Source: a virus. Taken from it: a stretch of DNA of 64,000 nt. The notes beneath the pieces are model-generated. The model was not told the DNA's origin and searched no databases. It saw only the letters and a list, made by a program, of their open reading frames with translations. The stretch covers positions 16,784 to 80,783 of IMG/VR virus record IMGVR_UViG_3300033142_000925; one strand, written 5' to 3'. The position numbers and the translations under genes are program-made. Below are positions 42,764 to 60,724 of this stretch, one piece after another (position 1 is the stretch's first letter; the number at the start of each line of letters is the position of its first letter).

Positions 42764-44158
42764 TTAGAACCAACCGAGATTAGCTGGACTGACATTTTTG
42801 ATGTAAGCGTGCTGCTCTTCTTTCTTCAGCGCCAAGGCACCAAATAAGAGCATGAGGAAAGGATACACGGCTTCATTTGTGGGATACAAATCGAATTTCA
42901 TTAATGGCAAAAATTGAAACCACTCTATCGCATCGTATATCTCATCCATGGTAAGGATGAAGATGTCAGATGTTCCGGGGAGGCTCGCATTGTCGTCAAC
43001 GATTGCATCTGCATCGCCGTCCACATAGGTTGAAAAATATCCCATGAAACGAACATCGCTGCCGTCGGCTGCACCCACTTTGGACCTGTATACCGCATAA
43101 GCGGTGATCGAGGCGTCAGGGGTAACCGATACGGAAAATACGTTCGTATCGCCGACAGTCGTAATAGTATCAGAATCTTCAGTGGAGGCAAGGCCCTCAC
43201 CATATCGATTCACTGCGGAAACTTTATAGTGATACTCACCAAGGTCCCCTGCTGCAAAGTACGAATCGCCGGTTGCTGTTCTGGTAATGCTGTTGATGGT
43301 GACCTGTGCAGGTCGAAGCGCTGTCAGGGTTGAAGCTACGGGAGCCGCACCTTCGTTGATGAATACGTCATCGAGCATTTCCAGTTTCCCGAATGGAGTC
43401 GGATACTCATTGAATATGGCAGCACCAACATCCTGACCTGACTGAAACCGCACGCGATCTCTGATCAAGTTCTGAAGATCCTGATGGACCATGGTGGAAG
43501 AAAGCAGCAAGCTACCTTTTCCATACTGATCACGAATCTGGCGTGAGCCATCATTGATCAGTTTTTCTACCGATGAACCGGAAGCAGTCGCCCCACGTGC
43601 ATCAAGCACATTGGATGTAGCCTGCTGTTTGATTCCTTTCGGCTGTTCGGGAAAGATTGTGTCATTCCCGTTAAACATTGCCTTCTCAACTTCGCGGATT
43701 ACCCACAAAGCTCCGGCATTCTGTTCAATGGTCAGGGCATTCTCGATCATGTTCGAGAGAGTCGCCTGCAAAGTCGCCTTTCGGAGAGTCTGCAAGTACT
43801 TGGCTGTCTCATACACACGAGCAATGGTCTGGTCAGCTTCCTGACTCTGGCCACCTTCAGGCACCCATGCTCCATCGCTGGAACCTACTGCCGTACGCTT
43901 GTCCCACTGGTGAACAGGGCTGGCTATGGGTTTCTTTTTCACCCGCTGGAAGAGGCGAGCCTCATCCTGCGACCACAACACGTTTACGAGCGTGTTTTCA
44001 AGGGATTCCGGGATCAATGCACGGCCACCAGCAAACCCGCTGGCGTCTACACCTGATCCGGCTTCTAACGCTTTAGTGAGTTCCTGTAGGACCTCAACGT
44101 TACCGAAGTCTCCGTGTCCCACGAAGTTCTGAGGGAATAGTTCAGGATTTATGTTCAT
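42764..44158 (-). CDS. major capsid protein, HK97 fold with Ig-like insertion
   Basis: A 464-residue protein in the slot after protease and scaffold. The N-terminal part carries LWSQDEARLFQRVKKKPIAS and QWDKRT-VG, then WVPEGGQSQEADQTIARVYETAKY, typical of the E-loop/N-arm region of phage HK97-fold capsid proteins, and a spine-like ALTIEQNAGALWVIREVEKAMF. Residues about 285-395 form an Ig/FN3-type insertion (GEYHYKVSAVNRYGEGLAS, then TPDASITAYAVYRSK) that should project from the capsid surface. The C-terminal domain ends with WFQFLPLMKFDLYPTNEAV. Residues about 35-55 (GVDASGFAGGRALIPESLE) closely resemble a segment of the protease gene product. Confidence 0.85.
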   Translation of the reverse strand: MNINPELFPQNFVGHGDFGNVEVLQELTKALEAGSGVDASGFAGGRALIPESLENTLVNVLWSQDEARLFQRVKKKPIASPVHQWDKRTAVGSSDGAWVPEGGQSQEADQTIARVYETAKYLQTLRKATLQATLSNMIENALTIEQNAGALWVIREVEKAMFNGNDTIFPEQPKGIKQQATSNVLDARGATASGSSVEKLINDGSRQIRDQYGKGSLLLSSTMVHQDLQNLIRDRVRFQSGQDVGAAIFNEYPTPFGKLEMLDDVFINEGAAPVASTLTALRPAQVTINSITRTATGDSYFAAGDLGEYHYKVSAVNRYGEGLASTEDSDTITTVGDTNVFSVSVTPDASITAYAVYRSKVGAADGSDVRFMGYFSTYVDGDADAIVDDNASLPGTSDIFILTMDEIYDAIEWFQFLPLMKFDLYPTNEAVYPFLMLLFGALALKKEEQHAYIKNVSPANLGWF

Positions 44159-44839
44159 TTAATTACCCTCCTTCATGAGCGCTTCAACCTTCTGGTCTAC
44201 CCGGTCATTCCGGTTTCCCAGTTGGTTCTTGTTGATGCGTCCCTCGATCATACCGGCCTCAGTGAGGTCGATCTTCCCGGCGCGGACCCATTCTCGTGAT
44301 TTCTGAAGCACGGTCATATTGTCGTACTCCACTTTCCCGCCTTCAAATCGGCTCTTATTCAGAACCTTGACGGACTGGCTTCGAACCGGAGTGCCCCCGA
44401 TCTGACGGATCATATCGGCTGTACTTTTTTCGAGTTTGGCAGTCATCAGGAGAACTTCTCCCTGACTCTTCACCATTTTCTCTACCCGGTTGAACTTTGC
44501 CTGCATGGACTTGCTTAGCTGCATGATGGTTTCATCCATCGCTTTAGTAAGCTGGCGCAGGAAAGGTTCGACATCAATTGCCGCAGCCGCGTTCGGATCT
44601 TCGGCAAGGATTTCAGAGATGGACTTTTCGTAATCCATATCCTCTTCTTCCTCTTCCTCAGACTCGTCTTCGTCTTCGGCATCTTTTGACTTGCCCTTGG
44701 GCTCGTCGTCATCTTTGGCCTTCCGAAGTGATTCTTCCGAATCGGATTCCAACGACTTCTGGAGGTCGGTCAAGGCGTCGTTGAAATCCTTTTCGATGAG
44801 TTCATCATCCAGAAGAACTTCTTGTATTGCTTCACTCAT
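44159..44839 (-). CDS. capsid scaffolding protein
   Basis: A 226-residue protein placed between protease and capsid genes. Residues about 38-70 are extremely acidic (EDEDESEEEEEEDMDYEKS), followed by a long helical/coiled-coil region (about 90-150, RQLTKAMDETIMQLSKSMQAKFNRVEKMV) and a basic C-terminus, the classic scaffold composition. Scaffold proteins nucleate prohead assembly and are then removed, often by the protease encoded just upstream. Stop and capsid start are separated by one base. Role based on composition and gene order. Confidence 0.7.
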   Translation of the reverse strand: MSEAIQEVLLDDELIEKDFNDALTDLQKSLESDSEESLRKAKDDDEPKGKSKDAEDEDESEEEEEEDMDYEKSISEILAEDPNAAAAIDVEPFLRQLTKAMDETIMQLSKSMQAKFNRVEKMVKSQGEVLLMTAKLEKSTADMIRQIGGTPVRSQSVKVLNKSRFEGGKVEYDNMTVLQKSREWVRAGKIDLTEAGMIEGRINKNQLGNRNDRVDQKVEALMKEGN

Positions 44840-44865: not shown

Positions 44866-45663
44866 TTACCTTCCCGCCCCAACAACGTTAGGGATTTTCC
44901 GGGATAGGTAGTTGATAATTTTAGCTGCTGAATTGCCTTCATATCCTCTATCGTATACGAAGTTAAGCATGTCATTATAGCTACCAATCTTATTATCTCT
45001 GACTGCTTTTAAAAGGTCACCAAACATTCCCCGTAGTTCTTCCGGGGGAACCATATTGTCGACCGTTGATCCCTGAAGACTCTCAGGACTGAGGGCACGA
45101 CCGCCTGTAAATACAGACGCATCTACTCCACCACCCGCCATGAGTGCTTTAGCGAAAGCGGCGAACGGTACCATCTGAACACCACCAAGAGTCCCATCAT
45201 TGACGGGCCTATGTGTGATCGCGGTTTCGTCCCATATAACTTGCTTGATTGCATTCTCGCTCTTTTGGAGAATACCACCACCGATTGAAGCGCCGAGGCG
45301 CTTTGCCCCACTCTGGATATTCTTCCAAACCTTCTGTGCGATGTCGTTGGCCTGATACAGATAACCTTTTACAAGGGTCCTGTGATCTTTAGTGAACTTC
45401 ACTTCCAACGGTTCGCCGATGATGAATCCCGGATCATGTGTCGCTTTATGCTTGTGATCCCACGATAGAACACCGTGCGAGAGGAAGTAGTCGGCGGCTT
45501 TCTGTAAGGCCGCCATGTCTACGGTCTCTCCGTCCTGATCTTTCATCTCGTTAGAGGCTTGGAGATAGACTATCCACTGCCCATTTTCTTCGGCGCCCTT
45601 GATAAGGACATCGCTGAATGGGCTGTAGAATGGGTTGCTAAGCTGTGCAATTCCCTGTCTCAT
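44866..45663 (-). CDS. prohead maturation protease
   Basis: A 265-residue protein resembling phage prohead proteases of the XkdF/U35 type: VYLQASNEMKDQDGETVDMAALQKAADYF, then LSWDHKHK (candidate catalytic His), LVKGYLYQANDIAQKVWKNI and RLGASIGGGIL (candidate catalytic Ser). It precedes the scaffold, as usual. The C-terminal about 90 residues include GVDASVFTGGRALSPESLQ, nearly the same as an early segment of the major capsid protein (GVDASGFAGGRALIPESLE). This suggests a shared processing or assembly signal, or a past duplication. Catalytic residues are assigned by pattern only. Start ATG 45663 with GGGAGAG ahead, directly after a terminator hairpin. Confidence 0.75.
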   Translation of the reverse strand: MRQGIAQLSNPFYSPFSDVLIKGAEENGQWIVYLQASNEMKDQDGETVDMAALQKAADYFLSHGVLSWDHKHKATHDPGFIIGEPLEVKFTKDHRTLVKGYLYQANDIAQKVWKNIQSGAKRLGASIGGGILQKSENAIKQVIWDETAITHRPVNDGTLGGVQMVPFAAFAKALMAGGGVDASVFTGGRALSPESLQGSTVDNMVPPEELRGMFGDLLKAVRDNKIGSYNDMLNFVYDRGYEGNSAAKIINYLSRKIPNVVGAGR

Positions 45664-46602: not shown

Positions 46603-47766
46603 CTAATTCCACGGGGTCGGTTTGATCAATTTTTCAGGATCGTCTATAGGCTTCTGAAGCCTTGCGCCCTCCCGCATAGCCGCCTCCATAGACGCTCTGA
46701 ACTTCGCATCGATGTCCTCAAACCCCTGAATGTACTTCACCCACGTACATCGACAGTGCGGGTGCTGAGTCCCAGCAGCTACCCACCAGTCAGCACGTCG
46801 GCGGCCATAGTTGTCTTTCCCCGGCCAGATCGCAGTGTACATTGTACCATCTATCATTACCTGATCGCCACTGTCAGGGGGTTCCGGCAATAGGACCACG
46901 ACCCTATCATTCACTTGACCCACACAAAACGGGCACGCCTCCGATGAGGATATGCCCTTCATGAATATCGTTTCATCCGGTCGCGCCCGGTCCATCTCTG
47001 TAATGAGTTGACCGTTGTTCATGGAGTTTCCGATCTCGGTCTCAGCTATACGCCGCCAGTCCCGATTCATCTCTCCGAACTTATCGAATAGATTCTCCCG
47101 GAGTTCCCGGTGACTCTGCCGATTCTTGATACCAGTTTGTAGGGTGTCATGGATCTTTTTGTACTGGTTCTGCTTCAGGTCCACAATCAACTCACCAGCG
47201 TGTTGCTGAGCAAAAGCTACGGTGTTCTGCCATAGCGGACCCTTCAGTTTGTTCATAGTGTCATCTACTGCATCCCGGACACTCAGATATCCGGCAGACA
47301 GAGAATCGTCAATGCTCATACCTTTGAGCAGCTTCCCCAGCGCAAGAGCGTGAGATGCGATCCGTTCCTCTTCTGGTGCATAGATATAATTGAATACCTT
47401 CAGGATGTCCCGCTTGATGATCTTCCACTGGCCTTTTGTCAACGGCTTCCCACTCTTTGGATCTATGAATATTCGGTTGTTCAACAGGAAGGGATCAGTC
47501 GAGGCTTTCGCCATGCCGATCCACTTCGAGGATATGACATTGTACATCTTGATCAGGTGCCGCTCGATACGGTCCTTGCTGAATGCTTCCAGTTCCCGGA
47601 CAGATCGAAACGGGGAGACCTCTTTCTGCTGTCTCTCAGAGTCGTATCCCAGCGCCTTGGTCAGCGCTGTTATTGCTTTGTCAAACTTCAATTCGGGATG
47701 GTGATGAAGGTTCTTGAGTTCAAGTACTATATGTGATTCACGAGTTTGAGAGCAAAGTTCACACAC
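46603..47766 (-). CDS. MuF/SPP1 gp7-like minor head protein
   Basis: A 387-residue protein. GTG 47766, following AGGGAGGGG, is preferred; a TTG seven codons earlier is an alternative. A CELC knuckle lies at the N-terminus. The central part is helical with WKIIKRDILKVFNYIYAPEEERIA. The C-terminal MuF domain shows WRRIAETEIGNSMNNGQ, SEACPFCVGQ and HPHCRCTWVKY, hallmarks of the SPP1-gp7/MuF family. These proteins sit inside the head near the portal and influence DNA exit. In some phages they carry toxin domains; here the ADP-ribosyltransferase-like protein is a separate gene nearby. Confidence 0.82.
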   Translation of the reverse strand: MCELCSQTRESHIVLELKNLHHHPELKFDKAITALTKALGYDSERQQKEVSPFRSVRELEAFSKDRIERHLIKMYNVISSKWIGMAKASTDPFLLNNRIFIDPKSGKPLTKGQWKIIKRDILKVFNYIYAPEEERIASHALALGKLLKGMSIDDSLSAGYLSVRDAVDDTMNKLKGPLWQNTVAFAQQHAGELIVDLKQNQYKKIHDTLQTGIKNRQSHRELRENLFDKFGEMNRDWRRIAETEIGNSMNNGQLITEMDRARPDETIFMKGISSSEACPFCVGQVNDRVVVLLPEPPDSGDQVMIDGTMYTAIWPGKDNYGRRRADWWVAAGTQHPHCRCTWVKYIQGFEDIDAKFRASMEAAMREGARLQKPIDDPEKLIKPTPWN

Positions 47767-47968
47767 GTCCGTGGCCCCTCCCTGCAAGGAAGGAACAATA
47801 GTTCAACCAGATCGAGGTATCCGTGGTCAGGTAGTCTTTTATCATTCTGCTACCCTCATCCATACTCCGATTCAGTGCGGCTTTAATATTTTTAGGGGGA
47901 GCTTTCCGGCCCATGTACTTACACCACTTTGCGAACCTGTCACCGGTTCTTAATGCTTCTGATCTCAT
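47759..47968 (-). CDS. small basic protein, unknown
   Basis: A 69-residue Lys/Arg-rich helical protein with two Cys and several Trp/Tyr, no recognised family. Its ATG overlaps the upstream gene stop as ATGA, and its end overlaps the MuF start (GTGTGA), so the three genes are translationally coupled. Accepted because of this packing. Position between putative packaged proteins suggests an internal head or assembly protein. Confidence 0.5.
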   Translation of the reverse strand: MRSEALRTGDRFAKWCKYMGRKAPPKNIKAALNRSMDEGSRMIKDYLTTDTSIWLNYCSFLAGRGHGRV

Positions 47969-48867
47969 GCTCCATACCTCTCCATATAGTTCCGATACCC
48001 TGACGAATGCTCCATCCTGAAGATGAAGTTATTCCGGGTACGCTTACTCGCGATCTGGTTCAGTAGGAATGCCTTGGCGAACGAATATGGAATCTTGATC
48101 TCCGCCTTCGCTGTCGCCCGTGTACGTTCCTTCTTTTTAACAATCTGCTTCACTCGGATCGTGAGGCTATCACCTTTATATTTCAGGTCCATGTCCTCAG
48201 CTTTCTTCGGGAGAATCCATTTCTTCTTCCCATTCGGTAACCCGGCTGTCAGCTTCGCAACCTTGGTTTTTATCATAGCACGAATATGAGAAGTAGACAG
48301 GTCCCCGGTCACTGACCAGCCGCCCATCCTCTTCTTTTCAGTCTTCACTCGGGACGCTTTCATAACCGGCAGCGCCGTGTCGTGCTTGCCTTCCTCATAG
48401 GTCCTGTATTCCTTGCCTTTCTTCGAGGTCTTTGTAATCGTCAGCTTGACCTTGGGCTTGGTAGAAAATCGTTCCTTCAATTGAATCAGTGACCGACCGA
48501 TCAGGTCCACAACTGCTTTCTTGTCACCAACAGGTGCGGGGGTTGATTTTACCCGGTCGACCACATCCTTATAGATTTGATGGGCCGTATCCGCTGGACC
48601 GTTCTTGATCGCTTCTACCAGACCCTCGAATCCTTTGATGTTCCGGGCCTGCATAACAGCGTCAACCTCGCTGCCAAGGTTGGTTGTCATTGCATAGTTG
48701 AAATATTCCCGGCCACGTCGCCACGAGTCAGCGAGTACCTGCTTTTCACCTTTCTGACCGCCCTCTACGACAACCCATTTCTTGCCGACCTTCTTACGGG
48801 TTGTCCCGTCGGCCCATGTGTGGGTTTCGCCCTGTGCGGCTGCCTTAGCTTTCAGTATCAGGTTCAT
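47965..48867 (-). CDS. basic protein of the packaged-protein cluster, unknown
   Basis: A 300-residue Lys-rich protein. ATG 48867 with AGGAAG ahead is chosen; the frame is open 22 codons further into the ART gene. It opens with LILKAKAAAQGETHTWADGTTRKK and then VGKKWVVVEGG, the type of short aromatic/basic leader seen in several neighbours (TopIB, polyvalent protein, 56356-56850). The body is helical followed by a beta-rich, very basic domain (about 150-290). No enzyme motif recognised. Overlaps the ART-like gene by 23 bases. A virion-internal or DNA-associated role is inferred. Confidence 0.5.
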   Translation of the reverse strand: MNLILKAKAAAQGETHTWADGTTRKKVGKKWVVVEGGQKGEKQVLADSWRRGREYFNYAMTTNLGSEVDAVMQARNIKGFEGLVEAIKNGPADTAHQIYKDVVDRVKSTPAPVGDKKAVVDLIGRSLIQLKERFSTKPKVKLTITKTSKKGKEYRTYEEGKHDTALPVMKASRVKTEKKRMGGWSVTGDLSTSHIRAMIKTKVAKLTAGLPNGKKKWILPKKAEDMDLKYKGDSLTIRVKQIVKKKERTRATAKAEIKIPYSFAKAFLLNQIASKRTRNNFIFRMEHSSGYRNYMERYGA

Positions 48868-50623
48868 CTTTCTTCCTATGAAGCGGTTCGTCGAAGATGG
48901 ATTCCATTCTCGCGATCCGGTCGTCGAATGCATTCTGCATAGCCTTCAGCAAAGCCATCTCAGATACGGTGGCATATACCATATTATAAACGCCCTGCGT
49001 CTCAACCTTGGTGATCGTGATAGAGGGGGCCCTCACTATAAACTCATGCTCATGTGCATGTTCAGATATGCCACTGGCCTCAGCCGCGCTATAGTTGACT
49101 TCGTTCACATCCTCAATCAGTTCGTCAATATCAATACCTTTGATCTTCTTGCTCTCACTGGTAAAGTCGTTGGCCAGAACAATGACAGTTCCTCCGGCAT
49201 TCGCGAATCCTTTTGCTGTTGACTCCTGAGTAGAAAATGAAGCCATGCCTACAGGAATCACATCCCCTACCTTCGCTACCTTCCAGTCATCATTACCTGT
49301 TCCCCTGTACAGTTCATTATGAGTAGCGGTCATCATTTTAGCCAAGACCACATCCCCTGTATTGTTGTAAGCTACTGACCCCGGATCGAGCCCGTCCCGT
49401 CGTTTGGTATCCGCTTCCTTTACAATAGATCGAGTTTCCCTAACATTATTTCCACGGACCCATTCACCAATAGTATTCAGATCGTCAGCGTCCCATTCAA
49501 GATCACTACGATCAGTCATGGTAAAATCTTCAAGGTCACCTCCGGCCTCTTCCTCAGCCTCATCCAATACTTTTTGTACCCAGTCCTCAGTACCAGATAT
49601 GCTCATACCATTATTGATCATCATGGAAAGCGCTTCACCTTCCTCAACTTCTATATAATCATTCGAATCTGAAAAGCTCCATACATCACTATCGGACAAA
49701 ATCGGATTTCCTTGATGCTCCCACCAATCCTTGATTTGATCTATATCCACCTCGCCATACTCATCAGTAGCATTATTATTGATATACGCAAAAGCCTCAG
49801 ATGTAGCTACAGCATCATCCCAATCAAGATCCCCTTCCATAGCAAGGCCCATTTCAAACCATTGACTATCATTGGAGTTATCGATAAAACCTTGAATATC
49901 CTCATTCGTTTTCAGGTGTTCACGAATCCATGTCCGAGCATCCAATCGGAGACCTTCGTTGCCGTAGTCCTCATCCTCATCTTCCCGGTCCATAACCGTG
50001 TTAATGATATGAATGGTTGCTCGTTTGATATCGTCTTCAGTAATCGGTTTTGGTGCTTCTTTCATATCGAAGTCAGCCGTATCCTCAAACCAACTCTCGG
50101 CCTTGTCCTGAATGAGTCCCGCCTTGCCGATTATATCATTCATCTTGTCTTCGCCATGCGTATCCAATGTATTTATCGCACGCTCTTTGAGATCCGCCGC
50201 AGATTCCCCGGACCCGCCGGTTACTACTTTCAGACCGGTGGATACCTCAGTCACCACCACGTCAGGGCCTACGCTGTTGTTTCTCTCAATCTCCCGGTGA
50301 ACCACAAACGACTTACCGAACTTATCGAATCTCTCCACAATAGCTTTGTCAGGTATTCGTATCGCCTCTTTAACAACATTAGTGGAACCCTCGTCCGGCT
50401 GCTTGTCCCGGAGAACGTACACACGGTTATCGCCCTTCGGTCCTTTCGGTACCGGAGCCGGGAGCATAACAAGGTCTTGATGGTTGATGATCGTGGGATT
50501 CTTTGGGGCCTGATCAGGGCGCACATAGAATGTCTGGATAAAAGGCTTTCCCTTCCTTGAGACCATTCGTTTTACTGGCACGAGCCCTTTCCGACTCATG
50601 GTTGCCTTGATCAGTAGTCGCAT
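48845..50623 (-). CDS. ADP-ribosyltransferase-like protein, probably packaged in the head
   Basis: A 592-residue protein whose C-terminal about 170 residues contain the R-S-E signature of ADP-ribosyltransferases: Arg440 in ELYRGTG, the Ser-Thr-Gln motif at about 464-466 in ASFSTQEST followed by GFANAGGTVIVL, and Glu525-x-Glu527 in HEHEFIV. Such enzymes transfer ADP-ribose from NAD to host proteins; T4 Alt is injected with phage DNA and modifies RNA polymerase. The N-terminal about 110 residues are basic and could be a packaging region; the middle is acidic and helical (about 170-380). It is encoded two genes ahead of MuF, in a block of probable head-internal proteins. The target is unknown. 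Catalysis is inferred from motif pattern. Confidence 0.72.
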   Translation of the reverse strand: MRLLIKATMSRKGLVPVKRMVSRKGKPFIQTFYVRPDQAPKNPTIINHQDLVMLPAPVPKGPKGDNRVYVLRDKQPDEGSTNVVKEAIRIPDKAIVERFDKFGKSFVVHREIERNNSVGPDVVVTEVSTGLKVVTGGSGESAADLKERAINTLDTHGEDKMNDIIGKAGLIQDKAESWFEDTADFDMKEAPKPITEDDIKRATIHIINTVMDREDEDEDYGNEGLRLDARTWIREHLKTNEDIQGFIDNSNDSQWFEMGLAMEGDLDWDDAVATSEAFAYINNNATDEYGEVDIDQIKDWWEHQGNPILSDSDVWSFSDSNDYIEVEEGEALSMMINNGMSISGTEDWVQKVLDEAEEEAGGDLEDFTMTDRSDLEWDADDLNTIGEWVRGNNVRETRSIVKEADTKRRDGLDPGSVAYNNTGDVVLAKMMTATHNELYRGTGNDDWKVAKVGDVIPVGMASFSTQESTAKGFANAGGTVIVLANDFTSESKKIKGIDIDELIEDVNEVNYSAAEASGISEHAHEHEFIVRAPSITITKVETQGVYNMVYATVSEMALLKAMQNAFDDRIARMESIFDEPLHRKKDEPDTES

Positions 50624-51055: not shown

Positions 51056-51393
51056 CAGTACTCACTCCTATCAAACTCTCCCGGAATTACGTTCAACTTC
51101 GCTGCGGAGATGCTTTCCTCTGCCATGATGCGGGCCTTCTGTAACGAGTCCCGCTCCCCCAACTTGTTTACATAGCGATCTTTCAGATCGTGGTACACTT
51201 CATCGTACGGTCCTTCCTTTTTCTGATCGAGCCGTTTTCGTAAAGCATCCATATCAGAGTTCAGTCGGTCGATCCCTTTATTGGCCGCTTCGATAACCTG
51301 TTCCTGTTCGCGAACAATGATAGCAGCTTTCGTATCCAGTTTTACCTTGACCGCATCGAGTTGGTCTGCGCTCTTCTCCGCCTGATTACGCAC
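51055..51393 (-). CDS. small coiled-coil protein, unknown
   Basis: A 112-residue charged protein that is almost one long coiled coil (residues 5-100) with many Lys/Glu/Asp heptads and no Cys or Trp. Its ATG overlaps the end of the polyvalent protein gene by eight bases and its stop overlaps the next ATG as TAATG. Probably a structural or assembly partner within the packaged-protein cluster. No family recognised. Confidence 0.5.
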   Translation of the reverse strand: MRNQAEKSADQLDAVKVKLDTKAAIIVREQEQVIEAANKGIDRLNSDMDALRKRLDQKKEGPYDEVYHDLKDRYVNKLGERDSLQKARIMAEESISAAKLNVIPGEFDRSEY

Positions 51394-54300
51394 TTCGGGC
51401 CTCCTCTTCGTATTTGTTCAGCATACCGATAAATCCCTTATCATCCAATGCCGTTACCGACCGAGGATTGCCGATGATATTCATTTCTTTCCGCTTCGTG
51501 GCCATCAAGTCTTCAGACCGCATATCCATAGGGTTCACACCGGACAGAACATAGGTCGAAGTATCCCTATCCTGACCCTTCCTGAATATCCGGGCGTTCC
51601 GCTGATCAAATGCGGCTGCGCTGTCCGGTATATCCAAGTGAAAAGTGACCGATCCCCCAGCCTGTAAGTTATGGCCGGATTCGAGAGTCTTAGTCCCTAC
51701 AATGAACCTGAGCGGATTGCCCGGATCATTAAATGCGGCCTTAGTCTTTGCCATCTCTCCGGGACCGGTCTCACCGTGAATCATCGCAACGGACCCTACA
51801 CCAAACTCTTTCTCAAGTCTCTTCTGAGCCGTTCGCATAGCCTTCAGTACGGGTTTACCCGGCTGGGATACGTGAACAACTGCCTTCTCTCCGGGATGGT
51901 TATTCTTCATCGTGTCGATAATCGTATCGACCTTAGCATTACTCTCGGTATAGCCGTCAGATAGAATCGAATAGTTTCTGGAATCTCTACGAGCCGAAGC
52001 TCCGGGAAGTTTCTGTTCCCGCTCATCCCTATATTGCCTCTCACTTGCCGCATACGCTTTCCGCTGTGGAGCAGACATTGGAATACGGAGTGTATTGACC
52101 TTGTTCTCAACCGGTAGTTGATTCTTCTGCGTGTAAACCCAGTCTCCGGTCTCTTTCCTGAACGCATCGTTGGCAGCGTCCTGAAATATGCCGGTACCTT
52201 GGTTGAGTCCCTTATATCGCTTCTCAAAATCAGCCATTGAACCCATACCATGTTCAGGATCAATGAAGTTGATCTTCCTGTAGAGTTCCTTCTTTGACGT
52301 TTTGATGTTCGTACCTGACATAGCCATCTTCAGAGGAACGTCTGCGAGTTGATCTAAAGCCTTATATCTCCCAGCCGCACCAGTACCGGCAGTCATTTCA
52401 TGAATCTCATCTAAAACAACCATATCGTATCCGGCATCTTTCAGGATCGAAGCGTCTTCCCTGAGTGCATCCTGTGAAACGATATGAATACCGTCCTGTT
52501 CAAGGTGTCGGCGGTGACGTTCAGTCTTCGAAGTGTTGGAGGTCGACTGCCTGACGAGCTTCTGCATATCCTTATCAAGGAAAGTCTCGCGTTGTTTGTG
52601 GAAGTCGCCACGAGTACCTGACGGGGTTACTACCAGAATCTTCTTAGCTCCCTTATTAGCCATAGCATCCATGATCCCCGCATAGGCAATTCCTGTCTTT
52701 CCAATACCCGCTTCAAAGTCTAACAGAACCCTACCCTTCTCATTGAAGAAACGGAGTCCGGCTTCCTGTGCTGCATCGAACTTGATACTGTCCTTAATAC
52801 CCGGTGGTTTATATCCGGTATTTGATTCATGAGCCTTGATAGCTGCAAGATTATCCTTCTCTGCCGACTTGTCAGCAGCACCCTGAAAGAAGTTGTTCAG
52901 AGACTCTTTCGGAATCTCCATGACCAGCCGCTTAGCGCGCCCTTTCTTAACGGTTCGTATCGAATAGGTACCTTTCTTCAAACCGGCATTCTTAGCCCTG
53001 TCACGAGCCCGTGCAAGGTCCTTACCCATATCTACCTGTACAACATCAGCCGGTGGATCTTCCAGCGCGTTGATCATATGCGCGGCTGCTCTCAGAGAAC
53101 CTACAGCCGTACCCAGTGCGCGCTGTGCTGCGGTGATCTGCTTCAGAGCATGACCATTAGCTGAGGCCATGGACAGGATTGCTTCGGCATCGTCTTTGTC
53201 CCGCGCCAGTCCCCTAATATCATCAGCGTTGGCCAGTCGTTTCTTGGTTTCCTTCAATGCACGGTCAACGACTTTCTCACGTTCTGTGGCTACATACTCT
53301 TCAAGGGCCTTACGCACGACTTCGCCCTTACCATCCAATTGGATCTTTGCGGTGACCGCTCGGGCCACAGCTTCAATCCCCAGTTCCTTTACAGTGTCAG
53401 TCGTGAAAGTAGCACCGGAACCGTACACATCTCCGATCAATCCGTTCAATGCGGAGATTGCACCTTGGTCAACATGCCCGTTGATCGCCTGACTCTGAGC
53501 ATTGAGGATGTCATACATCTGAATATTCTTTGCTGTCTCGGCCTGATCCTTGACCTGTCTCTGGATCTCATCCATTTCACTGGTCGTGGCTGCGGCAAAC
53601 ACCGCTCCAACCTTCAGGTCGGAAGGAATGTCAGCACTCTCCGCACCGATGGCCTTAATCGCTTTCCTGAACTGCTTTCTGGCTGCCAGTACTTCAAGAG
53701 CCTTGTCCTTATCGAGTAAGGTCTTCAGTTCCGGTGCTGCGTTAGGGTCCTCGGGCATATAGTCTTTCATCAGGGTGTTGAGCGCTTCCCGCTCCACATT
53801 CTTGACTTGCTTCTGGACCGCTTTCTTGAGTTCCTTCTCAGACTGCTTATCAACTTCGTTTTCAATAGCCTTCTCATCCATGGTCTTAAACGCCTTTCGC
53901 GCTTCAACCATCTTCCGGGCCTTGTCCTCAAGTTCTTTCATCTGCTTAGCACTAATATTATCTCTGATCTCATCAGGGGTAACACCCAGAATATCTGTAA
54001 CCACCTCAGTATAGGCGGCTCGGGCTGTCTTTCGTGCTGCGTGCTGAACTTTACGGGTTGCTGCGGCCTCGCTGATCTCTTCCTTGGTCAGCGCCTTCGT
54101 TTCTTCTTTTTTCTTAGCCTCGATCCGTTTCCGCTTCACAGTATAGTCTTCACGGCTCATGATATTGTCAATCTTCAGGTGATTCAGTTTCCCACCGGCC
54201 CCGCCGACCACGACATAGCCGCCGTCACTGGTTCCCTGCAACAGGACCCTTGCACCCCGGATCGTAACCCAGCGCATTCCACGAGCTTTCACTTCATCGG

Positions 54301-56359
54301 CTGAGTAATATTTCTTACCCTCGCCGTTTGCTTTCATAAGATCACCCAGCCAGAAGAACTTGATCAGCTTATGATTGCGATGGAGAAACCATTGTCCGCT
54401 ATCGCTCTTGAGCAAGTCCCCTTCTCCGAATGATTTGTTCACTCCGAACCTGTCTACCAGATTCGTAATTCTCTGTTCCATAATTCGCCTCAGTTTCGGG
54501 TCTTCAATACCCGCAAGGATTACGCCTTTCTTAGACAGTACGTTTGTCAGTTGTTCACGGATATCATTATCACTCACGAGGCCGAACACCGAGGAAGCCG
54601 AACGGGAGGGATCTCGAAGACTCTCGACTTCGGTAACATCCCCACCAAATGAATCGCCTTTCGGAGCGCCCTGTGCCCTGTAGCGTAATGATCCACCATT
54701 GTCGATTCTCCATGCTCTCGCACCGTCCCATATAACATTATCATTATCCATACCCAGAACATCCCAGTTACTCACCAACGCGTCGGCCAGAAACCCATCC
54801 CGAAGCTGCTTCATAGCCTCAGACTGTTCATCTCCATAGAGGTCGGAAAGTGGTACGCCCTCAATATAGTCGGCAACCTGTACGAGCTTCCCCTCACTGT
54901 CGTGTGAAAGTTGAACATCAGGGACCGCCACACCGAGCGTTTTGTAGATTCGGTTCGCCATGTATTCATCTTTGAGATGACCTTCACCGGTTGAACGTTT
55001 CAGGACCTTCTCTTCACCATTGGCCAGCCTGACATGGGCTGCGCCTCCGGTAGTCCCTCCAAGATTCTTGAGGGTGGCATAATGTCCCATACCTCTGGGC
55101 CGCTTCCCACCATTATCAGGATATGTATAATGCCATCGACCGTTCTTGAAGTACTTATTGATATACTTTGACTTCTGTAGCTTCATCGATTCTTTAATCT
55201 CATCAGGTCCGAACAGGTGCATAGCGTATTTCAAGGAAAGCTCTTCGAATGCGGTTGTCATGCCTTCTGACTTACTCTTCATAACCTTCGCCGGGTTCAA
55301 TTTCATATAGTTGACATTCGGCCTTCCATGCGCTTTATAGTCCCAAGCCTTCGGCGCGTACTGGTCATCCCATGCCACGGTCTCAGTCACCTCGAATCCA
55401 TATTTCGAATATATCTTAGGTAACACGTCACCCAGACAATCCAATGACTTCGCTCCATTCTTTATAGCCGTCTTCATGATTGAAGCGCCTTCATGGGCAC
55501 CCGGTTCAGAGAAAACAGATATAAGGTCTCCGTCACCGGTAACCGCATAGCCGCTCTTACCTGTCTCGGAGATATACGCCTTGGCACGCTTGCCCTCATA
55601 TTCTTTCGCAGTGTAGGAAGTAACAAACGCATCGAACTCTTTTGGAGTCTTTGCGTCTCGAACAGGTACAAACTCAGCTAAGGGAACATTGGAATAAGTT
55701 GTGACCAGTTTGATAGCGTCCTTCTTATCCACGAAGGTCGCCAGTTCTTTTTTAGCTGGCTTACGCCCTTTCTTGTCACCGGGGTATTCATAGTACCAGC
55801 GTCCATCCTTGCCCCGCCATCGTTTGGTATACTTTGCCTTCTCCAAGTGACCGATACTGTCATTATCCGCAGTCAGAATGTATGTTTTAGACTTCCGTAA
55901 TTTCTTAGGCGGCTTCAGAGTCAACCCTTTCCGGTCCTTCAACATCTGTTTGAAGGTTGCCATATCTACCTGATCACAGGACCCGTAATAATCTGATCGG
56001 TCATACTGTCTCTGGTATGCTGCCTTGGCTTCTACCTGACTGTTGAACCCGAGCATACACTTGTCTTCATCATAGTTACCGGTATATGGATCATTTTGGT
56101 GTACGATATATACCTTATCGGAGAACTTGCTGGGTCCCATATATACATCCACATGATCACCGTCGACACCGAGAGTAAGACGCACATAGCCATAAGCAAT
56201 ATGCATAAAAGTACGCCACATATTCCCATGATCGTCCTCCCCCTGCCTGTAAGTTCCTCGTTCATTCTCAATTGAGATGGGTAATCCCTGAAATGTGCAT
56301 TTGCCTTGGAGCTTGCGACTGCGCCAGTCTACTGCATTAGTAATAATGCCTCGTTTCAT
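51386..56359 (-). CDS. giant polyvalent protein: pyrophosphatase-like, acetyltransferase-like, kinase-like, SNF2 helicase
   Basis: A 1657-residue fusion. Residues about 1-145 match the inorganic-pyrophosphatase-like domain of phage polyvalent proteins (GDHVDVYMGP, VYIVHQNDPYTGNYDEDKCM). Residues about 205-355 resemble a GNAT-type domain (KYGFEVTETVAWDDQYAPKAWD, GRPNVNYMKL). Residues about 430-600 look like a HipA/PI-kinase-type domain (VPDVQLSHD, NWDVLGMDNDNVIW, WRIDNGGSLRYRAQG). A long charged coiled coil spans about 730-1130. The C-terminus is an SNF2-type helicase: FEAGIGKT (1215-1222), DEIH (1317-1320), and motif VI QRNARIFRKGQ (1586-1596). Short aromatic/basic motifs (about 176-195 and 398-415) separate the domains. 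Such proteins are thought to be injected with phage or plasmid DNA to counter host defence. Here location among head genes supports packaging; this is inferred. Confidence 0.8.
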   Translation of the reverse strand: MKRGIITNAVDWRSRKLQGKCTFQGLPISIENERGTYRQGEDDHGNMWRTFMHIAYGYVRLTLGVDGDHVDVYMGPSKFSDKVYIVHQNDPYTGNYDEDKCMLGFNSQVEAKAAYQRQYDRSDYYGSCDQVDMATFKQMLKDRKGLTLKPPKKLRKSKTYILTADNDSIGHLEKAKYTKRWRGKDGRWYYEYPGDKKGRKPAKKELATFVDKKDAIKLVTTYSNVPLAEFVPVRDAKTPKEFDAFVTSYTAKEYEGKRAKAYISETGKSGYAVTGDGDLISVFSEPGAHEGASIMKTAIKNGAKSLDCLGDVLPKIYSKYGFEVTETVAWDDQYAPKAWDYKAHGRPNVNYMKLNPAKVMKSKSEGMTTAFEELSLKYAMHLFGPDEIKESMKLQKSKYINKYFKNGRWHYTYPDNGGKRPRGMGHYATLKNLGGTTGGAAHVRLANGEEKVLKRSTGEGHLKDEYMANRIYKTLGVAVPDVQLSHDSEGKLVQVADYIEGVPLSDLYGDEQSEAMKQLRDGFLADALVSNWDVLGMDNDNVIWDGARAWRIDNGGSLRYRAQGAPKGDSFGGDVTEVESLRDPSRSASSVFGLVSDNDIREQLTNVLSKKGVILAGIEDPKLRRIMEQRITNLVDRFGVNKSFGEGDLLKSDSGQWFLHRNHKLIKFFWLGDLMKANGEGKKYYSADEVKARGMRWVTIRGARVLLQGTSDGGYVVVGGAGGKLNHLKIDNIMSREDYTVKRKRIEAKKKEETKALTKEEISEAAATRKVQHAARKTARAAYTEVVTDILGVTPDEIRDNISAKQMKELEDKARKMVEARKAFKTMDEKAIENEVDKQSEKELKKAVQKQVKNVEREALNTLMKDYMPEDPNAAPELKTLLDKDKALEVLAARKQFRKAIKAIGAESADIPSDLKVGAVFAAATTSEMDEIQRQVKDQAETAKNIQMYDILNAQSQAINGHVDQGAISALNGLIGDVYGSGATFTTDTVKELGIEAVARAVTAKIQLDGKGEVVRKALEEYVATEREKVVDRALKETKKRLANADDIRGLARDKDDAEAILSMASANGHALKQITAAQRALGTAVGSLRAAAHMINALEDPPADVVQVDMGKDLARARDRAKNAGLKKGTYSIRTVKKGRAKRLVMEIPKESLNNFFQGAADKSAEKDNLAAIKAHESNTGYKPPGIKDSIKFDAAQEAGLRFFNEKGRVLLDFEAGIGKTGIAYAGIMDAMANKGAKKILVVTPSGTRGDFHKQRETFLDKDMQKLVRQSTSNTSKTERHRRHLEQDGIHIVSQDALREDASILKDAGYDMVVLDEIHEMTAGTGAAGRYKALDQLADVPLKMAMSGTNIKTSKKELYRKINFIDPEHGMGSMADFEKRYKGLNQGTGIFQDAANDAFRKETGDWVYTQKNQLPVENKVNTLRIPMSAPQRKAYAASERQYRDEREQKLPGASARRDSRNYSILSDGYTESNAKVDTIIDTMKNNHPGEKAVVHVSQPGKPVLKAMRTAQKRLEKEFGVGSVAMIHGETGPGEMAKTKAAFNDPGNPLRFIVGTKTLESGHNLQAGGSVTFHLDIPDSAAAFDQRNARIFRKGQDRDTSTYVLSGVNPMDMRSEDLMATKRKEMNIIGNPRSVTALDDKGFIGMLNKYEEEARSA

Positions 56360-56850
56360 TCGACACCCTCCAACATCTTATTCGAATAGGTGGTCTTCCT
56401 CTTAGCGCTCCAATCTTTCCAGACTCCATTCAGACCGTAACCATATTTAAAATCCCCCGGAGCTAACGGGTTACTGGGTAGGCTGTTCTTGACATTGAAC
56501 GTCACCTCCCCAAAGTCGGCATACATCACCACGTACTTACCCGGATACTTCCTGCTCATAGCCGCACCGTACTTCTTAGCATCGGCGACCTTCCAGCCTT
56601 TCTTATTAGCGTCAATCCTCACGGATACATTGCCGGTGGTCCCACTACTCGAAGGTTTACCGGAGATTTCTAAAGGCATAGGCTTCTTATGCGCGGATTC
56701 ACGCCGCTTCGTTGGTGGGGGAGACTTAGGTCGGGGCGCGCTCTTTTTCTTCTTAGCCCCGTAGTAGTACTTATAGTTCCCCGGCGTGCCAGTCCGTTTC
56801 GTGTAATTAGACTTCAACAACTCGATGGGATCAACAATTATAATTCTCAT
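56356..56850 (-). CDS. basic protein of the packaged-protein cluster, unknown
   Basis: A 164-residue protein starting at ATG 56850. It begins with a hydrophobic MRIIIVDPIELL, then the aromatic/basic motif KSNYTKRTGTPGNYKYYYG shared in form with two segments of the polyvalent protein, a Lys/Pro/Ser-rich linker (about 32-75), and a C-terminal alpha/beta domain (SVRIDANKKGWKVADAKKYGA, then YGYGLNGVWKDWS). Unrecognised. Its stop overlaps the start of the polyvalent gene by four bases (ATGA). Confidence 0.5.
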   Translation of the reverse strand: MRIIIVDPIELLKSNYTKRTGTPGNYKYYYGAKKKKSAPRPKSPPPTKRRESAHKKPMPLEISGKPSSSGTTGNVSVRIDANKKGWKVADAKKYGAAMSRKYPGKYVVMYADFGEVTFNVKNSLPSNPLAPGDFKYGYGLNGVWKDWSAKRKTTYSNKMLEGVE

Positions 56851-56874: not shown

Positions 56875-57741
56875 TTAGCTCCGTGGCTTTTTTACATTCT
56901 TAACCGGTGTGTGTTTTGTGGTTGACTCAGGTTTGCTCGACCCTATCTCTTCGGGTTTCACAATGATGGTCCTGCGACCAAAATTGTCATGAGCGCGGCT
57001 GCCTGAACCTGACGCACTGGCATTGTAGTTTTTGTGAGGTGCTTTCGCGCCCTTCACTCGACCCTTGCCATCAACACGTTTGGTGTCGGCGTACTTGCCC
57101 TCATCTTCGGGCTTGCTTGAGCCGATCATCCTTTCCGCTGCCATCTTCGCGAACTTCATTCGTTCGGCATGACCTTCGTAGGGAATCTTGCTCTTAGTCT
57201 TACCACTCACATTTGAGAGGCTTGCCGGATGGTCTGCTTTCTCCAAAGGTTCAATCTCTCCGGGAACCAGAATCAGTGCAAATCTTGTTTTCATATCACC
57301 CTCCAATAGTGACTTGTTCACGTTTTCATTTTCCATCTCGATGAGATGGGTATAGTATTTCGAATCTTCGTGCAAGTGATCCAACGCAATCTCTCGCGCT
57401 ACCCCTTTGCTTGAAGTGTGTTCCATTTCAATCTTGATCCCGAGCTTCAATTCTTTCGGGTCAACTTCCATTGTATCGCCTTCCTTGTGAAGACCTTCTT
57501 TCTTCAGGTGGTCAACTGCCGCTTTGGATTTAGAAAGACTGCTTACAATCGACTTAACATCGCGCGGACTCATTTTATACTTGGCTCCTATCGCATTGAG
57601 CGTAGACTCTGAAGGATTCGAGTTCTTGAGAAACAACTGAGCAATAGCTTTCGCAGTCATCTTGTATCCAATCTCATCACCACAAGAACCGGTCACAGGT
57701 CCTGTAGCTACGGACTCAAGTTTCTTCTTATTCATCGTCAT
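56875..57741 (-). CDS. DUF5661-like protein, probably head-internal
   Basis: About 288 residues. ATG 57741 is taken; ATG 57735 and TTG 57753 are alternatives and no ribosome site is decisive. A helical N-terminal region contains TLNAIGAKYKMSPRDVKSIVSSL, a possible HTH. Residues about 90-135 (ELKLGIKIEMEHTSSKGVA, then ALDHLHEDSKYYTHLIEME) match the DUF5661 pattern found in phage proteins. The C-terminal third is a Gly/Ser/Lys-rich tail with short motifs, probably flexible. Function of the domain is unknown. Placed between the small acidic ORF and the 56356-56850 gene within the packaged-protein cluster. Confidence 0.55.
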   Translation of the reverse strand: MTMNKKKLESVATGPVTGSCGDEIGYKMTAKAIAQLFLKNSNPSESTLNAIGAKYKMSPRDVKSIVSSLSKSKAAVDHLKKEGLHKEGDTMEVDPKELKLGIKIEMEHTSSKGVAREIALDHLHEDSKYYTHLIEMENENVNKSLLEGDMKTRFALILVPGEIEPLEKADHPASLSNVSGKTKSKIPYEGHAERMKFAKMAAERMIGSSKPEDEGKYADTKRVDGKGRVKGAKAPHKNYNASASGSGSRAHDNFGRRTIIVKPEEIGSSKPESTTKHTPVKNVKKPRS

Positions 57742-57871
57742 CCGCCGGATCAAATCCTAATATCTGAACAACCTCTTTCGGGGTTGACTCCTGCTTGTCA
57801 TCATCCGGGGAAGTATCGGGAGTCCATGCAACTTCCTCGGCTGATCCGATATACACATCAGGTGCTTTCAA
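57728..57871 (-). CDS. short acidic protein with TTG start, unknown
   Basis: A 47-codon frame beginning with TTG 57871, preceded by GGAGG seven bases ahead, inside the last codons of the topoisomerase gene. It reads LKAPDVYIGSAEEVAW at the start and ends ILGFDPADDDE. It fills an otherwise unassigned 100-base gap and overlaps the next gene start by 14 bases, fitting the coupled style of the operon. Evidence is packing and ribosome site only. Acidic residues concentrate at the C-terminus. Confidence 0.45.
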   Translation of the reverse strand: MKAPDVYIGSAEEVAWTPDTSPDDDKQESTPKEVVQILGFDPADDDE

Positions 57872-58748
57872 CTTTCCGCCTCCACTTTTCAAAGATCGCC
57901 GGGTTCACATAGCTGCCCAGCGCCACCACTCGGGTGTTGCCCAGTTGCTTAGCTACTGCATTGCCCACAGCAATCACAGCCTTCTTATACTCGACCATGG
58001 TCTTAGGGGCATTACCCCTCATTGCTTTCATAGCAACCTCAGTTCCGAGGTGGGTTCTGAAATCCTTGCTCTGGAACTTCGCCCCGTCTCCCAGTCGGTG
58101 GGTATATCTCAAAAGGCCGTCGCCGGTAACACCGAACAATCGACCTGTTTTTCCTGTCTCACGCTTCCTCTTCAGAAGCATCTTTGCCACACTCGCATCG
58201 GTTACGGGGATTTCCAAGTCGATCCCTTTCTTCCCGACGAACTTCAGGACCACACCAGAATCGGTACGTTTTACGTGTCGCCCTTCCAGTGTCGTAGCGC
58301 CGAATGCGTCGACGCTCCCTTTCGTATTCTTCTCGCTGCCCGGTCTGATCCCCGTACTCATGATCAACCATAAGACCGTCGCCGCCTCGTTCTTCCCCTT
58401 CACGTCGGCAGCAACCTCTTGATTGATCCCGTCGAAGGCTTTGTTCAGCGCTCGTATCCTTGCAAACTTTTCCTTGCTTGCCGAATCCACATGAGCCGGA
58501 TTGTAGATGTACTGCGTTCGCCCTTTGGCATCGTCGCCCTTCACCCACAGCTTGGATTTCGGATCGCTGAAATACTGAAGGTTCGTCCACGCGGGAGGAA
58601 CCTTGAACTTGTTCTGTATCCGGGCGGGCAGCTTGTCCCTGTTCTTCACAGGAACCCATCTCCCCTCGGCTATCTTTACATACTTGCCGCTCTTGCTTTT
58701 CGCACCGATGGCGGCCCGTTTTGCTTTGGTGAAGATGATCAGTTTCAT
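57858..58748 (-). CDS. type IB DNA topoisomerase
   Basis: A 296-residue protein with the poxvirus/bacterial topoisomerase IB layout. N-terminal domain: PPAWTNLQYFSDPKSKLWV and GRTQYIYNPAH. Catalytic domain: STGIRPGSE (Arg135), KFVGKKGI (Lys173/174), KDFRTHLGT (Arg231) and the likely nucleophile Tyr280 in SYVNP, matching the R-K-R-Y order of the family. It relaxes supercoils by a 3'-phosphotyrosine intermediate without ATP. The N-terminus carries the basic/aromatic leader SGKYVKIAEGRWVPVKN shared in form with neighbours. Position between portal-associated and packaged proteins suggests it may be packaged and act during DNA entry; inferred. Its ATG follows the previous TAA directly. Confidence 0.85.
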   Translation of the reverse strand: MKLIIFTKAKRAAIGAKSKSGKYVKIAEGRWVPVKNRDKLPARIQNKFKVPPAWTNLQYFSDPKSKLWVKGDDAKGRTQYIYNPAHVDSASKEKFARIRALNKAFDGINQEVAADVKGKNEAATVLWLIMSTGIRPGSEKNTKGSVDAFGATTLEGRHVKRTDSGVVLKFVGKKGIDLEIPVTDASVAKMLLKRKRETGKTGRLFGVTGDGLLRYTHRLGDGAKFQSKDFRTHLGTEVAMKAMRGNAPKTMVEYKKAVIAVGNAVAKQLGNTRVVALGSYVNPAIFEKWRRKVEST

Positions 58749-59102
58749 TTAGCCCCATACTCCCACAACCGTCATCCAGAAGAATCCATTATAGAATGCC
58801 GTCATCAAGATGCGCCCGATGGGTGTTTTCTTGTTGATGATCTTCATCCGATCCCCTTCAGTCTTCACATATGCAAACAAAGCTACCAGCAACGCACCGG
58901 CCAGTTGTCCCAGCTTCAAGGGCTGCCAGACCATAGTCAAATCACTTTTCAATATGAGCGCCTGACTTCCTAATACTCCCAGAACCAACATCCCGTATAC
59001 ACCGAACTTGATCATCCATCGCCGGTGTTTTGACTTCGCCTCTTCGATGACTCGTAATCGCTCTTCAAGGACTGCGCGGGGTATTGGTTTCCTTGCGGCC
59101 AT
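58749..59102 (-). CDS. small membrane protein
   Basis: A 117-residue protein. The N-terminal 28 residues are basic and helical (RAVLEERLRVIEEAKSKHRRW), followed by three hydrophobic segments: about 32-50, about 62-80 and about 96-115 (MTAFYNGFFWMTVVGVWG). Located directly after the portal (adjacent bases) and before the topoisomerase. It could be a holin-like or DNA-entry membrane protein. No family is recognised. TAAATG links it to the topoisomerase gene. Confidence 0.5.
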   Translation of the reverse strand: MAARKPIPRAVLEERLRVIEEAKSKHRRWMIKFGVYGMLVLGVLGSQALILKSDLTMVWQPLKLGQLAGALLVALFAYVKTEGDRMKIINKKTPIGRILMTAFYNGFFWMTVVGVWG

Positions 59103-60671
59103 CTACTCCACCAATATGCGGAGTGTCCGCTCTTTAGATTTAGTTAGGGTCTGTAATTCCTTCAAAGACTTCTCAGCCTTATCGTCATCTTTTTCCGTTC
59201 TGGTAGAATCTGGTTGTTCGGCGGCCTCTTCAGCCTCCTGACCCTGAGCGCTTTCGCCCTGATCTTCCTGACCAAATCCACCCATTCCCATGCCCTGTTC
59301 AGCCATTTCCTTCTGCTGCTCGGCCTGTTTGTCACCCATGGCCATCTGTACAGCCTGAGCATTCATAGGCATCTCTGACCAGTCTTCTTTGAAAGGGTCG
59401 AGTCCGTCCTCTTCACGGACCTCATCGATTGTTCTCCATCCCATGATCTGCTTGTTTCGGACTTCGGCTTTCTTCTGTTCGTCCTCACGTTCGAGACCGA
59501 CAAACTTAAACCGGTATTTCTGAGTGACCTTCCTGATCACCTTGTTGACGTGTTGTTCTGTGAATCCCAGCATTGAAGCAAGGCCCCGGTCCTTAGAGGA
59601 TTGTATCCGGGGCTCTGCATTCTCACCGATGATCGATGTGCTGTCGTCTGTTTTTATTCCAAGCTCTGCAAGGTCCATCGAGAATACAGCACCCACGAGC
59701 GAAGATACGAACATCATGGTTTTATGATATTCCATATCCTTGTTCGACGTGGACAGGTTCTTGAAGTCGACCCCCACACCGTCCTTTCCACTCGGTAAGA
59801 TAGGGATCGAGAATTGCGCTCCCGATCCGGTCATAGCTGCATACCAATAATTTCGTATGCTATCCAATTGAGGCTTGGCCACATCACCCATGACAGAAAT
59901 GAAACCTTTCGGTACACGGTCCTTAATCAACTGATCCCGGATGTAATTGTATCCAAATAGCAGCGTGGTAATAATGTTGATACACATCTCAACCGGGCTG
60001 TATCCATAACCACGATACTTGACATCAGACCGCTTGAACTTGTAGTCGAATATCAGATTCTCGCTCTTGTACTCTGCATATATTTTCTCATCGATCTTCT
60101 GAACGAAGCGGACCCCTTGGCCCCATCGCTTTTCGTCTATGACGCGTCCGATGGTTGCTCCGTCTAACCCCCAGAACGCCACCGGTTCACCCAGTCTGTT
60201 ATACTGGATTTCCGTGGCGACTTGATCGATTTCATACGTGTCGCGAACCAACATAGAAACATAATCCATGAAGTCGTCTTCACGTTCCCCGTCAAATACG
60301 AATCCAGTCTGCTCTATGAAGTTGGTCAACTCTATTATTTCACTTTCGTTCTCTTTCTCACCTCGGTACTCTTGCGTCCGGTTCTCAATCTCAAATCGAA
60401 AGCCGCGATCATTCTGTTCTGTCGCGTACTTCAGAAAGGGGAGAATCTGGTCCTGTCGGGTATTGATAATTCCATTGATCAACGGCAACTGACCAACAGA
60501 TCGTCTGAGCGTATCAAAGTTAAGTTGAAGTATCCGTTCCCGGACTCCCTGCGCTCCGCCCCAGAGCCATGTCTGGACCCTTGGATCGACGAGTTGACTG
60601 GTAAGTTTTCTGATTGTTGCATCCTCGTTAAAGGATACGGCTGTATTTGATTTCTTCCTTTTTCTTGCCAT
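59103..60671 (-). CDS. portal protein
   Basis: A 522-residue protein. ATG 60671 is used; the frame is open 15 codons further, but that region contains the -10 of a promoter. Features: N-terminal basic start, GGAQGVRERILQLNFDTLRRS (wing), LPLINGIINTRQDQILPF, a long stem/crown region with RGYGYSPVEMCINIITTLLFGYNYI and YWYAAMTGSGAQFSIPI, the helix FSMDLAELGIKTDDSTS, and a charged C-terminus (about 430-522, many Gln/Glu/Met). This is the pattern of phage portal proteins of the large-myovirus type that form the dodecameric DNA gate. A terminase gene is not in the window. Name given from overall pattern and gene order. Confidence 0.85.
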   Translation of the reverse strand: MARKRKKSNTAVSFNEDATIRKLTSQLVDPRVQTWLWGGAQGVRERILQLNFDTLRRSVGQLPLINGIINTRQDQILPFLKYATEQNDRGFRFEIENRTQEYRGEKENESEIIELTNFIEQTGFVFDGEREDDFMDYVSMLVRDTYEIDQVATEIQYNRLGEPVAFWGLDGATIGRVIDEKRWGQGVRFVQKIDEKIYAEYKSENLIFDYKFKRSDVKYRGYGYSPVEMCINIITTLLFGYNYIRDQLIKDRVPKGFISVMGDVAKPQLDSIRNYWYAAMTGSGAQFSIPILPSGKDGVGVDFKNLSTSNKDMEYHKTMMFVSSLVGAVFSMDLAELGIKTDDSTSIIGENAEPRIQSSKDRGLASMLGFTEQHVNKVIRKVTQKYRFKFVGLEREDEQKKAEVRNKQIMGWRTIDEVREEDGLDPFKEDWSEMPMNAQAVQMAMGDKQAEQQKEMAEQGMGMGGFGQEDQGESAQGQEAEEAAEQPDSTRTEKDDDKAEKSLKELQTLTKSKERTLRILVE

Positions 60672-60696
60672 GGGTATCTGGTACCTCCACAACTTG

Positions 60697-60724
60697 ATTA
60701 TAACATGATAGTCCACTCAAACAA
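60697..60724 (-). promoter_or_regulatory. promoter of the head/structural operon
   Basis: On the minus strand TTGTTT (60719-60724), 16 bases, then TATAAT (60697-60702), a perfect -10. The portal start lies 26 bases beyond the -10 (60671), with GGAGG in between. It follows immediately after the terminator at 60734-60759, so transcription is reset here. Confidence 0.7.

Follow-up and report, generated by a model that had tools for sequence, protein, structure and literature searches.

A type IB topoisomerase gene among head genes

The window, a 64-kb stretch out of an 80.8-kb viral record, carries on the minus strand an intact, free-standing gene (57858-58748; ATG at 58748, stop at 57858) for a type IB topoisomerase (TopIB) of 296 aa; the plus-strand frame of the same interval is interrupted by a stop. 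Pfam Topoisom_I (PF01028) matches the ORF with E = 7.3e-20, far beyond the cut-off of 23.7 bits, and the closest solved sequence is the Deinococcus TopIB 2f4q (E = 1.3e-17). An AlphaFold (AF2) model with 46 relatives in the input reached a mean pLDDT of 91.4, with values below 50 confined to residues 2-8, and a Foldseek search of this model against the PDB returned variola TopIB (3igc, 7.8e-14) at the top, Deinococcus TopIB at 1.2e-12 and human TopI at 2.7e-10. Tyrosine recombinases start in that list at 8.7e-3 with XerH and, as the sequence scores agree, a tyrosine integrase identity was rejected. The sequence-only reading had named a type IB enzyme with a full R-K-R-Y catalytic set; its ends were exact, and the set is present together with N271 of the bacterial pentad (R135, K173, R231, N271, Y280). 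Judged by pentad and fold, the window gene is that of a catalytically intact type IB topoisomerase, with predicted activity.

In transcription order, the portal gene is followed by genes for a transmembrane (TM) protein, TopIB, a DUF5661 protein, a 164-aa protein, a 1657-aa polyvalent protein and small or unassigned proteins, and then by genes for a MuF-like protein, the head maturation protease, the scaffold, the major capsid protein (MCP) and tail proteins, including a weak sheath match (Table 1). The portal, TM protein and TopIB genes follow one another with zero intergenic gaps, and GGAG precedes the TopIB ATG. Protease, scaffold and MCP genes are co-directional with TopIB and lie 12-16 kb downstream. 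The place claimed for TopIB, right after the portal and a membrane protein, was thus borne out; a family match for the hydrophobic protein at 58749-59102 was not found.

Table 1. Features of the head operon and of the TopIB gene in the window
Feature	Coordinates	Strand	Basis
Portal protein, TLTK↓S near C-terminus	59103..60716	-	Pfam Phage_portal 3.8e-17, phrog_12 1.8e-36
Short hydrophobic (TM) protein, 117 aa, between portal and TopIB	58749..59102	-	One strong hydrophobic stretch
Type IB topoisomerase, 296 aa	57858..58748	-	ORF, Pfam, 2f4q, AF2, Foldseek
Putative cleavable leader MKLIIFTK (↓A9), residues 1-8	58725..58748	-	Low pLDDT residues 2-8; motif enrichment
Shared tag, residues 9-37 (AKRAAIGAKSKSGKYVKIAEGRWVPVKNR)	58638..58724	-	HMM of five TopIB N-termini
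Catalytic Arg135	58344..58346	-	Alignments A3, A8
Catalytic Lys173	58230..58232	-	Alignments A3, A8
Catalytic Arg231	58056..58058	-	Alignments A3, A8
Pentad Asn271 (His in poxvirus enzymes)	57936..57938	-	Alignments A3, A8
Nucleophile Tyr280	57909..57911	-	Alignments A3, A8
DUF5661 protein downstream of TopIB	56875..57753	-	Pfam 1.8e-11; TTG start uncertain
164-aa protein, leader MRIIIVDPIELLK↓SNYTKR	56356..56850	-	ORF and motif; no family match
1657-aa polyvalent protein: InPase, unassigned middle, SNF2 helicase	51386..56359	-	InPase 1.3e-39, SNF2 1.4e-12 (Pfam), phrog_62 2e-53
592-aa head-operon protein, leader MRLLIK↓A	48845..50623	-	Homologue in L197; no family match
322-aa ORF, internal Met gives leader MNLILK↓A	47965..48933	-	Homologue in L197
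Minor head (MuF-like) protein	46603..47787	-	Weak PHROG head-morphogenesis 2e-5 to 2e-4; TIGR01641 0.0019
Head maturation protease	44866..45663	-	phrog_1028 1.1e-21
Scaffold, eight LxK↓[AS] sites (0.84 expected)	44159..44839	-	phrog_15087 2.3e-5
Major capsid protein (MCP)	42764..44158	-	phrog_752 1.5e-58, SU10_MCP 3.1e-11
Arrows mark putative cleavage points.

Primase- and DnaB-like genes of the window phage are about 52 kb away from TopIB, and the terminase lies at the opposite end of the record. A DnaB-like gene turned up in 13 of 37 records; many records are fragments, so that its absence from the others is uninformative. DnaB-like genes over the cut-off lie between about 8 kb (G030) and about 55 kb (G005) from TopIB. 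A replication-module gene was rejected on these distances, and the gene order of relatives, which had been named as a check on the sequence-only reading, did not refute that reading.

Two further observations concern this region. A 299-aa protein encoded at 62202-63101 (minus strand), about 3.5 kb upstream of TopIB, matches phrog_6247 "DNA topoisomerase" (1.7e-103) and is Topo VI-A/Spo11-like by eye, so that with TopIB the phage has two genes of topoisomerase type. A K↓ALxAGxGVDASxFxGGRALxPESL-like segment occurs both in the N-terminal arm of the MCP (42764-44158) and at the C-terminal end of the head protease (44866-45663; blastp about 1e-8 in L197) and is perhaps a protease-docking or processing element.

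Relatives of the enzyme and their fusions to head proteins

Narrow searches gave two near-identical relatives only, with a TopIB 100% identical in one contig and 84% in the second, and the portal adjoins TopIB in both. Alignment-based IMG/VR scans yielded 28 and then 115 matching stretches, of which 80 were kept, giving 79 distinct loci. Having been found by similarity to the window TopIB, these are not an unbiased sample; the contigs are metagenomic fragments, the fetched neighbourhood was 10 kb, and the local HMMs were small. All near relatives come from metagenomic contigs, and none was present in 50,697 GenBank phage records searched by tblastn, for which the window enzyme and two further members served as queries. 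The GenBank search returned only distant TopIBs of about 24-34% identity (PaBG, Lu11, Rhizobium phages, NCTB, BS162P1), and a species-genome scan returned bacterial-type TopIB with no more than 34% identity.

In a maximum-likelihood tree (quick method with SH-aLRT supports, no bootstrap), 77 phage sequences fall into a single group (SH-aLRT 94, stem 0.61), 48 bacterial rows lie on the other side (SH-aLRT 93), and the distant jumbo and Bacteroides phage enzymes are separate on long branches. The window TopIB does not group inside bacterial TopIB in this tree. An origin as a host gene at a prophage edge suits L019-L031, L033 and L035, which have bacterial-like TopIBs at contig edges or with prophage genes, and was rejected for the window; the members of this set that were included in the tree (L019, L021, L033, L035) cluster with the bacterial sequences.

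The pentad is kept in 77 of 78 TopIB domains, which indicates that catalytic activity is under selection in the clade. Only L034 lacks the catalytic tyrosine. This loss is what might be expected if TopIB served as a DNA-binding or structural, non-catalytic module; with all five residues retained everywhere else, we regard such a derivation as highly improbable. In L034 itself (6821-9103), the tyrosine is replaced by S, the ORF lies between a Mu-type portal and a weak capsid match, and its remainder resembles a Mu I-type protease-scaffold by eye.

TopIB forms the C-terminal domain of the portal protein in 20 of the 79 loci, in three portal families, and is fused to a DUF2213 head protein (taken as protease-like) in 3/79 and to MuF in 4/79. 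A further 39/79 loci have a portal, MuF, DUF2213 or XkdF protease gene within the fetched 10 kb, a neighbourhood that by itself is weak evidence for a head link, whereas the fusions are not. Local HMMs recognised no head gene within the fetched stretch in 13/79 loci (L015, L018, L041, L050, L070, L074, L077, L083, L089, L099, L105, L106, L111), several of which are short or end nearby. According to Pfam, Phage_portal_3 is joined to TopIB in L042, L046, L048, L081, L113 and 13 members of A6, Portal_Mu in L059, and lambda-type portal_2 in L061 and one A6 member; the other Pfam-supported partners are DUF2213 (L060, L075, L078), MuF (L109), NUDIX (L077, L086), ART-PolyVal (L102) and also InPase. 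Closer inspection of the L048 protein by AlphaFold revealed a portal fold at residues 77-487, a disordered linker at 488-556 and a TopIB fold, and this single chain matches both the Pam3 portal (4.7e-21) and TopIB (3.2e-13) in the PDB. The portal-fusion state changes 12 times on the tree, with at least five changes forced by supported branches; hence, joining and splitting of portal and TopIB recurred. With fusions to three unrelated portal families and 12 tree changes, chance adjacency of TopIB and head genes was rejected.

The frequency of portal fusions might suggest a swivel near the portal, in which TopIB, located within the capsid at the inner opening of the portal, would relieve torsion of DNA being pumped in or running out. 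Fusion would put up to 12 TopIB copies around the incoming DNA, the pentad is conserved, and in the window only the 117-aa TM protein separates TopIB from the portal. However, InPase domains are fused to the portal as well (9 of 55 portal ORFs: L013, L052, L058, L069, L079, L081, L086, L093, L094), so that the portal C-terminus seems to accept cargo in general; TopIB is joined to DUF2213, MuF or NUDIX in other relatives, and the window enzyme is free-standing. In addition, the disordered, tagged linker suggests release, and one end of the linear DNA in the capsid may be free. The varied partners, together with InPase at the portal C-terminus, favour general cargo over a portal-specific job, and we consider the swivel unlikely. 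The same low probability is given to its fullest form, an uncultured tailed-phage group in which a ring of portal-tethered TopIB would swivel the genome while free forms would arrive via a cleavable tag.

Leader, shared tag and putative cleavage site

An HMM built from five TopIB N-termini (window, L002, L012, L038, L039) matches six segments in unrelated non-TopIB neighbours in relatives, with E-values of 1.1e-9, 1.9e-7, 3.6e-7, 1e-4, 8e-4 and 0.067 (best reversed control, 5.7 bits). These segments sit at N-termini or between domains, and [LMV]xK↓[AS] precedes all of them. The tag region also aligns with N-terminal strands of bacterial TopIB, and part of it may therefore be native TopIB sequence.

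The motif [LIVMF]xK[AS] occurs 45 times in the window head genes versus 18.5 expected, and 33 times versus 25.5 elsewhere; the control motifs LxR[AS] and LxK[other] were flat. Enrichment is about tenfold in the scaffold (8 versus 0.84), and in the 1657-aa polyvalent protein LxK↓[AS] sites separate domains; the window TopIB taken alone is not enriched (2 versus 1.5). In the relative L012/L197, with a scaffold of 45% identity, the motif counts are 9 versus 0.71 in the scaffold, 4 versus 0.80 in the protease and 21 versus 9.7 in the polyvalent protein. We regard [LIVMF]xK↓[AS] as a putative head-protease site, although TopIB of L012 and L039 has K↓G at this position, not K↓[AS].

By analogy to the capsid-targeting sequence of T4, of which 10 residues suffice (PMC9026906), MKLIIFTK↓A is a putative cleavable leader. 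The T4 internal proteins (IPI-III, Alt) likewise combine a short N-terminal leader and a putative head-protease site with functionally unrelated cargo. They have no sequence relation to the proteins described here, and the window motif ends in K↓[AS], with targeting and cleavage in the window being putative.

A second kind of motif, HPR..GxF, PRD..GRW or N..HD..GRF, is present in the 110 residues before the TopIB domain in 46/75 loci, compared to 21/1446 random windows of other proteins and 4/3750 shuffles. It recurs on neighbouring portal, MuF, NUDIX and InPase proteins. The view that TopIB lies in a cluster of likely packaged proteins is strengthened by the tag and putative site common to its neighbours and by the fusions to portal, DUF2213, MuF and effectors.

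Proposed packaging and role of the topoisomerase

TopIB is encoded among head genes and either bears tags like those of internal head proteins or is fused to them. Since its front end is common to its neighbours and its relatives are joined to the portal, the window enzyme is probably among the packaged proteins and delivered with the DNA. With an intact pentad, a head-operon position, fusions, a shared tag and motif enrichment observed, we infer packaging, cleavage, delivery and a DNA target as follows. TopIB would be co-expressed with the head proteins and enter the prohead by means of its short leader and tag at the N-terminus or, in relatives, as the C-terminal domain of a portal, DUF2213, MuF or multi-effector protein. 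The head protease would probably trim it after Lys8, and the enzyme may then stay with the DNA until delivery into the host. There, it could relax positive and negative supercoils of the incoming genome without ATP, allowing early transcription, circularisation or the start of replication before phage-made enzymes exist. The TopIB of the vaccinia virion acts in early transcription. Among the candidate roles, relaxing the incoming genome ranked best, and we lean somewhat toward this complete reading of the window TopIB as head cargo that would enter with the DNA and relax it for early transcription, circularisation or replication. Because enzymes of type IB work by swivelling a single strand and cannot pass one duplex through another, an "untangling" of DNA, also put forward in the sequence-only reading, is mechanistically unlikely.

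It is imaginable that the enzyme is made late and is not a virion protein, sharing the operon for timing only and relaxing replicated concatemers before packaging. The window gene is free-standing, and among the 14 virion bands identified in PaBG its distantly related TopIB is missing (Coomassie-level detection). However, on this view neither the cargo tags in common with neighbours nor the joining of TopIB to portal, DUF2213 and MuF in relatives would have a role, and we give it only a small chance.

The packaged-cargo reading finds a parallel in the phage polyvalent proteins and the portal- or MuF-fused effectors described by Iyer et al. 2017 (PMC5512222). The window cluster is of the same type, with the same partners InPase, ART, SNF2, MuF and portal; TopIB is not among the domains listed there, as "topoisomerase" occurs in a reference title only. 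The proteins of L060, L075, L077, L081 and L102 have at least two disparate domains and are encoded with virion genes, and thus qualify as phage polyvalent proteins, whereas the window enzyme is a separate polypeptide of a single domain plus tag. At 11845-19506, L012 encodes a homologue of the window polyvalent protein, 2553 aa long, that has acquired a Zeta-toxin and a DUF5661 domain; in the window, DUF5661 is encoded by a gene of its own.

Such company raises the question of whether the injected enzyme is aimed at the host, relaxing its chromosome at entry and thereby altering supercoiling-sensitive transcription or a topology-dependent defence. TopIB is indeed co-located with or fused to the polyvalent effector domains InPase, SNF2, ART, NUDIX and Zeta toxin, but nothing indicates host targeting, type IB enzymes in general show little site preference, and phage DNA is the nearest substrate. 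Hence, we hold a host-directed effector to be rather doubtful.

As for cargo that relaxes the phage genome, the closest functional precedent is vaccinia H6R, a compact viral TopIB and known virion enzyme (PMC1540416). Vaccinia belongs to an unrelated virus realm with a different assembly and has no portal link, and packaging into the phage head is putative. Bacterial and poxviral TopIBs (Deinococcus 2f4q, variola 2h7f/3igc) share fold, pentad and catalytic-core size with the window enzyme, which differs in belonging to its own phage clade (best bacterial identity, 34%), in its head operon and in its phage leader and tag.

In the openly licensed papers searched, we found no report of a packaged phage TopIB or of a portal-topoisomerase fusion. 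The placement of a phage TopIB as head cargo appears to be new, while TopIB in phages and portal-fused effectors were already known. It would add a new enzyme class to the polyvalent and portal-linked cargo of phages and a DNA-topology enzyme to their injected effectors, in parallel with the poxvirus virion TopIB. The question of torsion in phage DNA while it is packaged or enters the cell is an old one, and we know of no phage enzyme dedicated to this torsion; a catalytically conserved TopIB fused to portal and head proteins makes this question directly testable. Furthermore, the recurring tags (LxK↓[AS] leader, HPR..GxF linkers) could help to predict packaged cargo in metagenomic phages.

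TopIB was already known in the phages PaBG, Lu11, NCTB and Motura (PMC7824862). These enzymes and that of Bacteroides phage BS162P1 are phage-encoded as well and have about 24-34% identity to the window clade; a portal fusion of TopIB was not found in the jumbo-phage and BS162P1 records examined. The record of L074, a jumbo-sized phage of 281 kb, has two TopIB genes about 6 kb apart (192552-199250).
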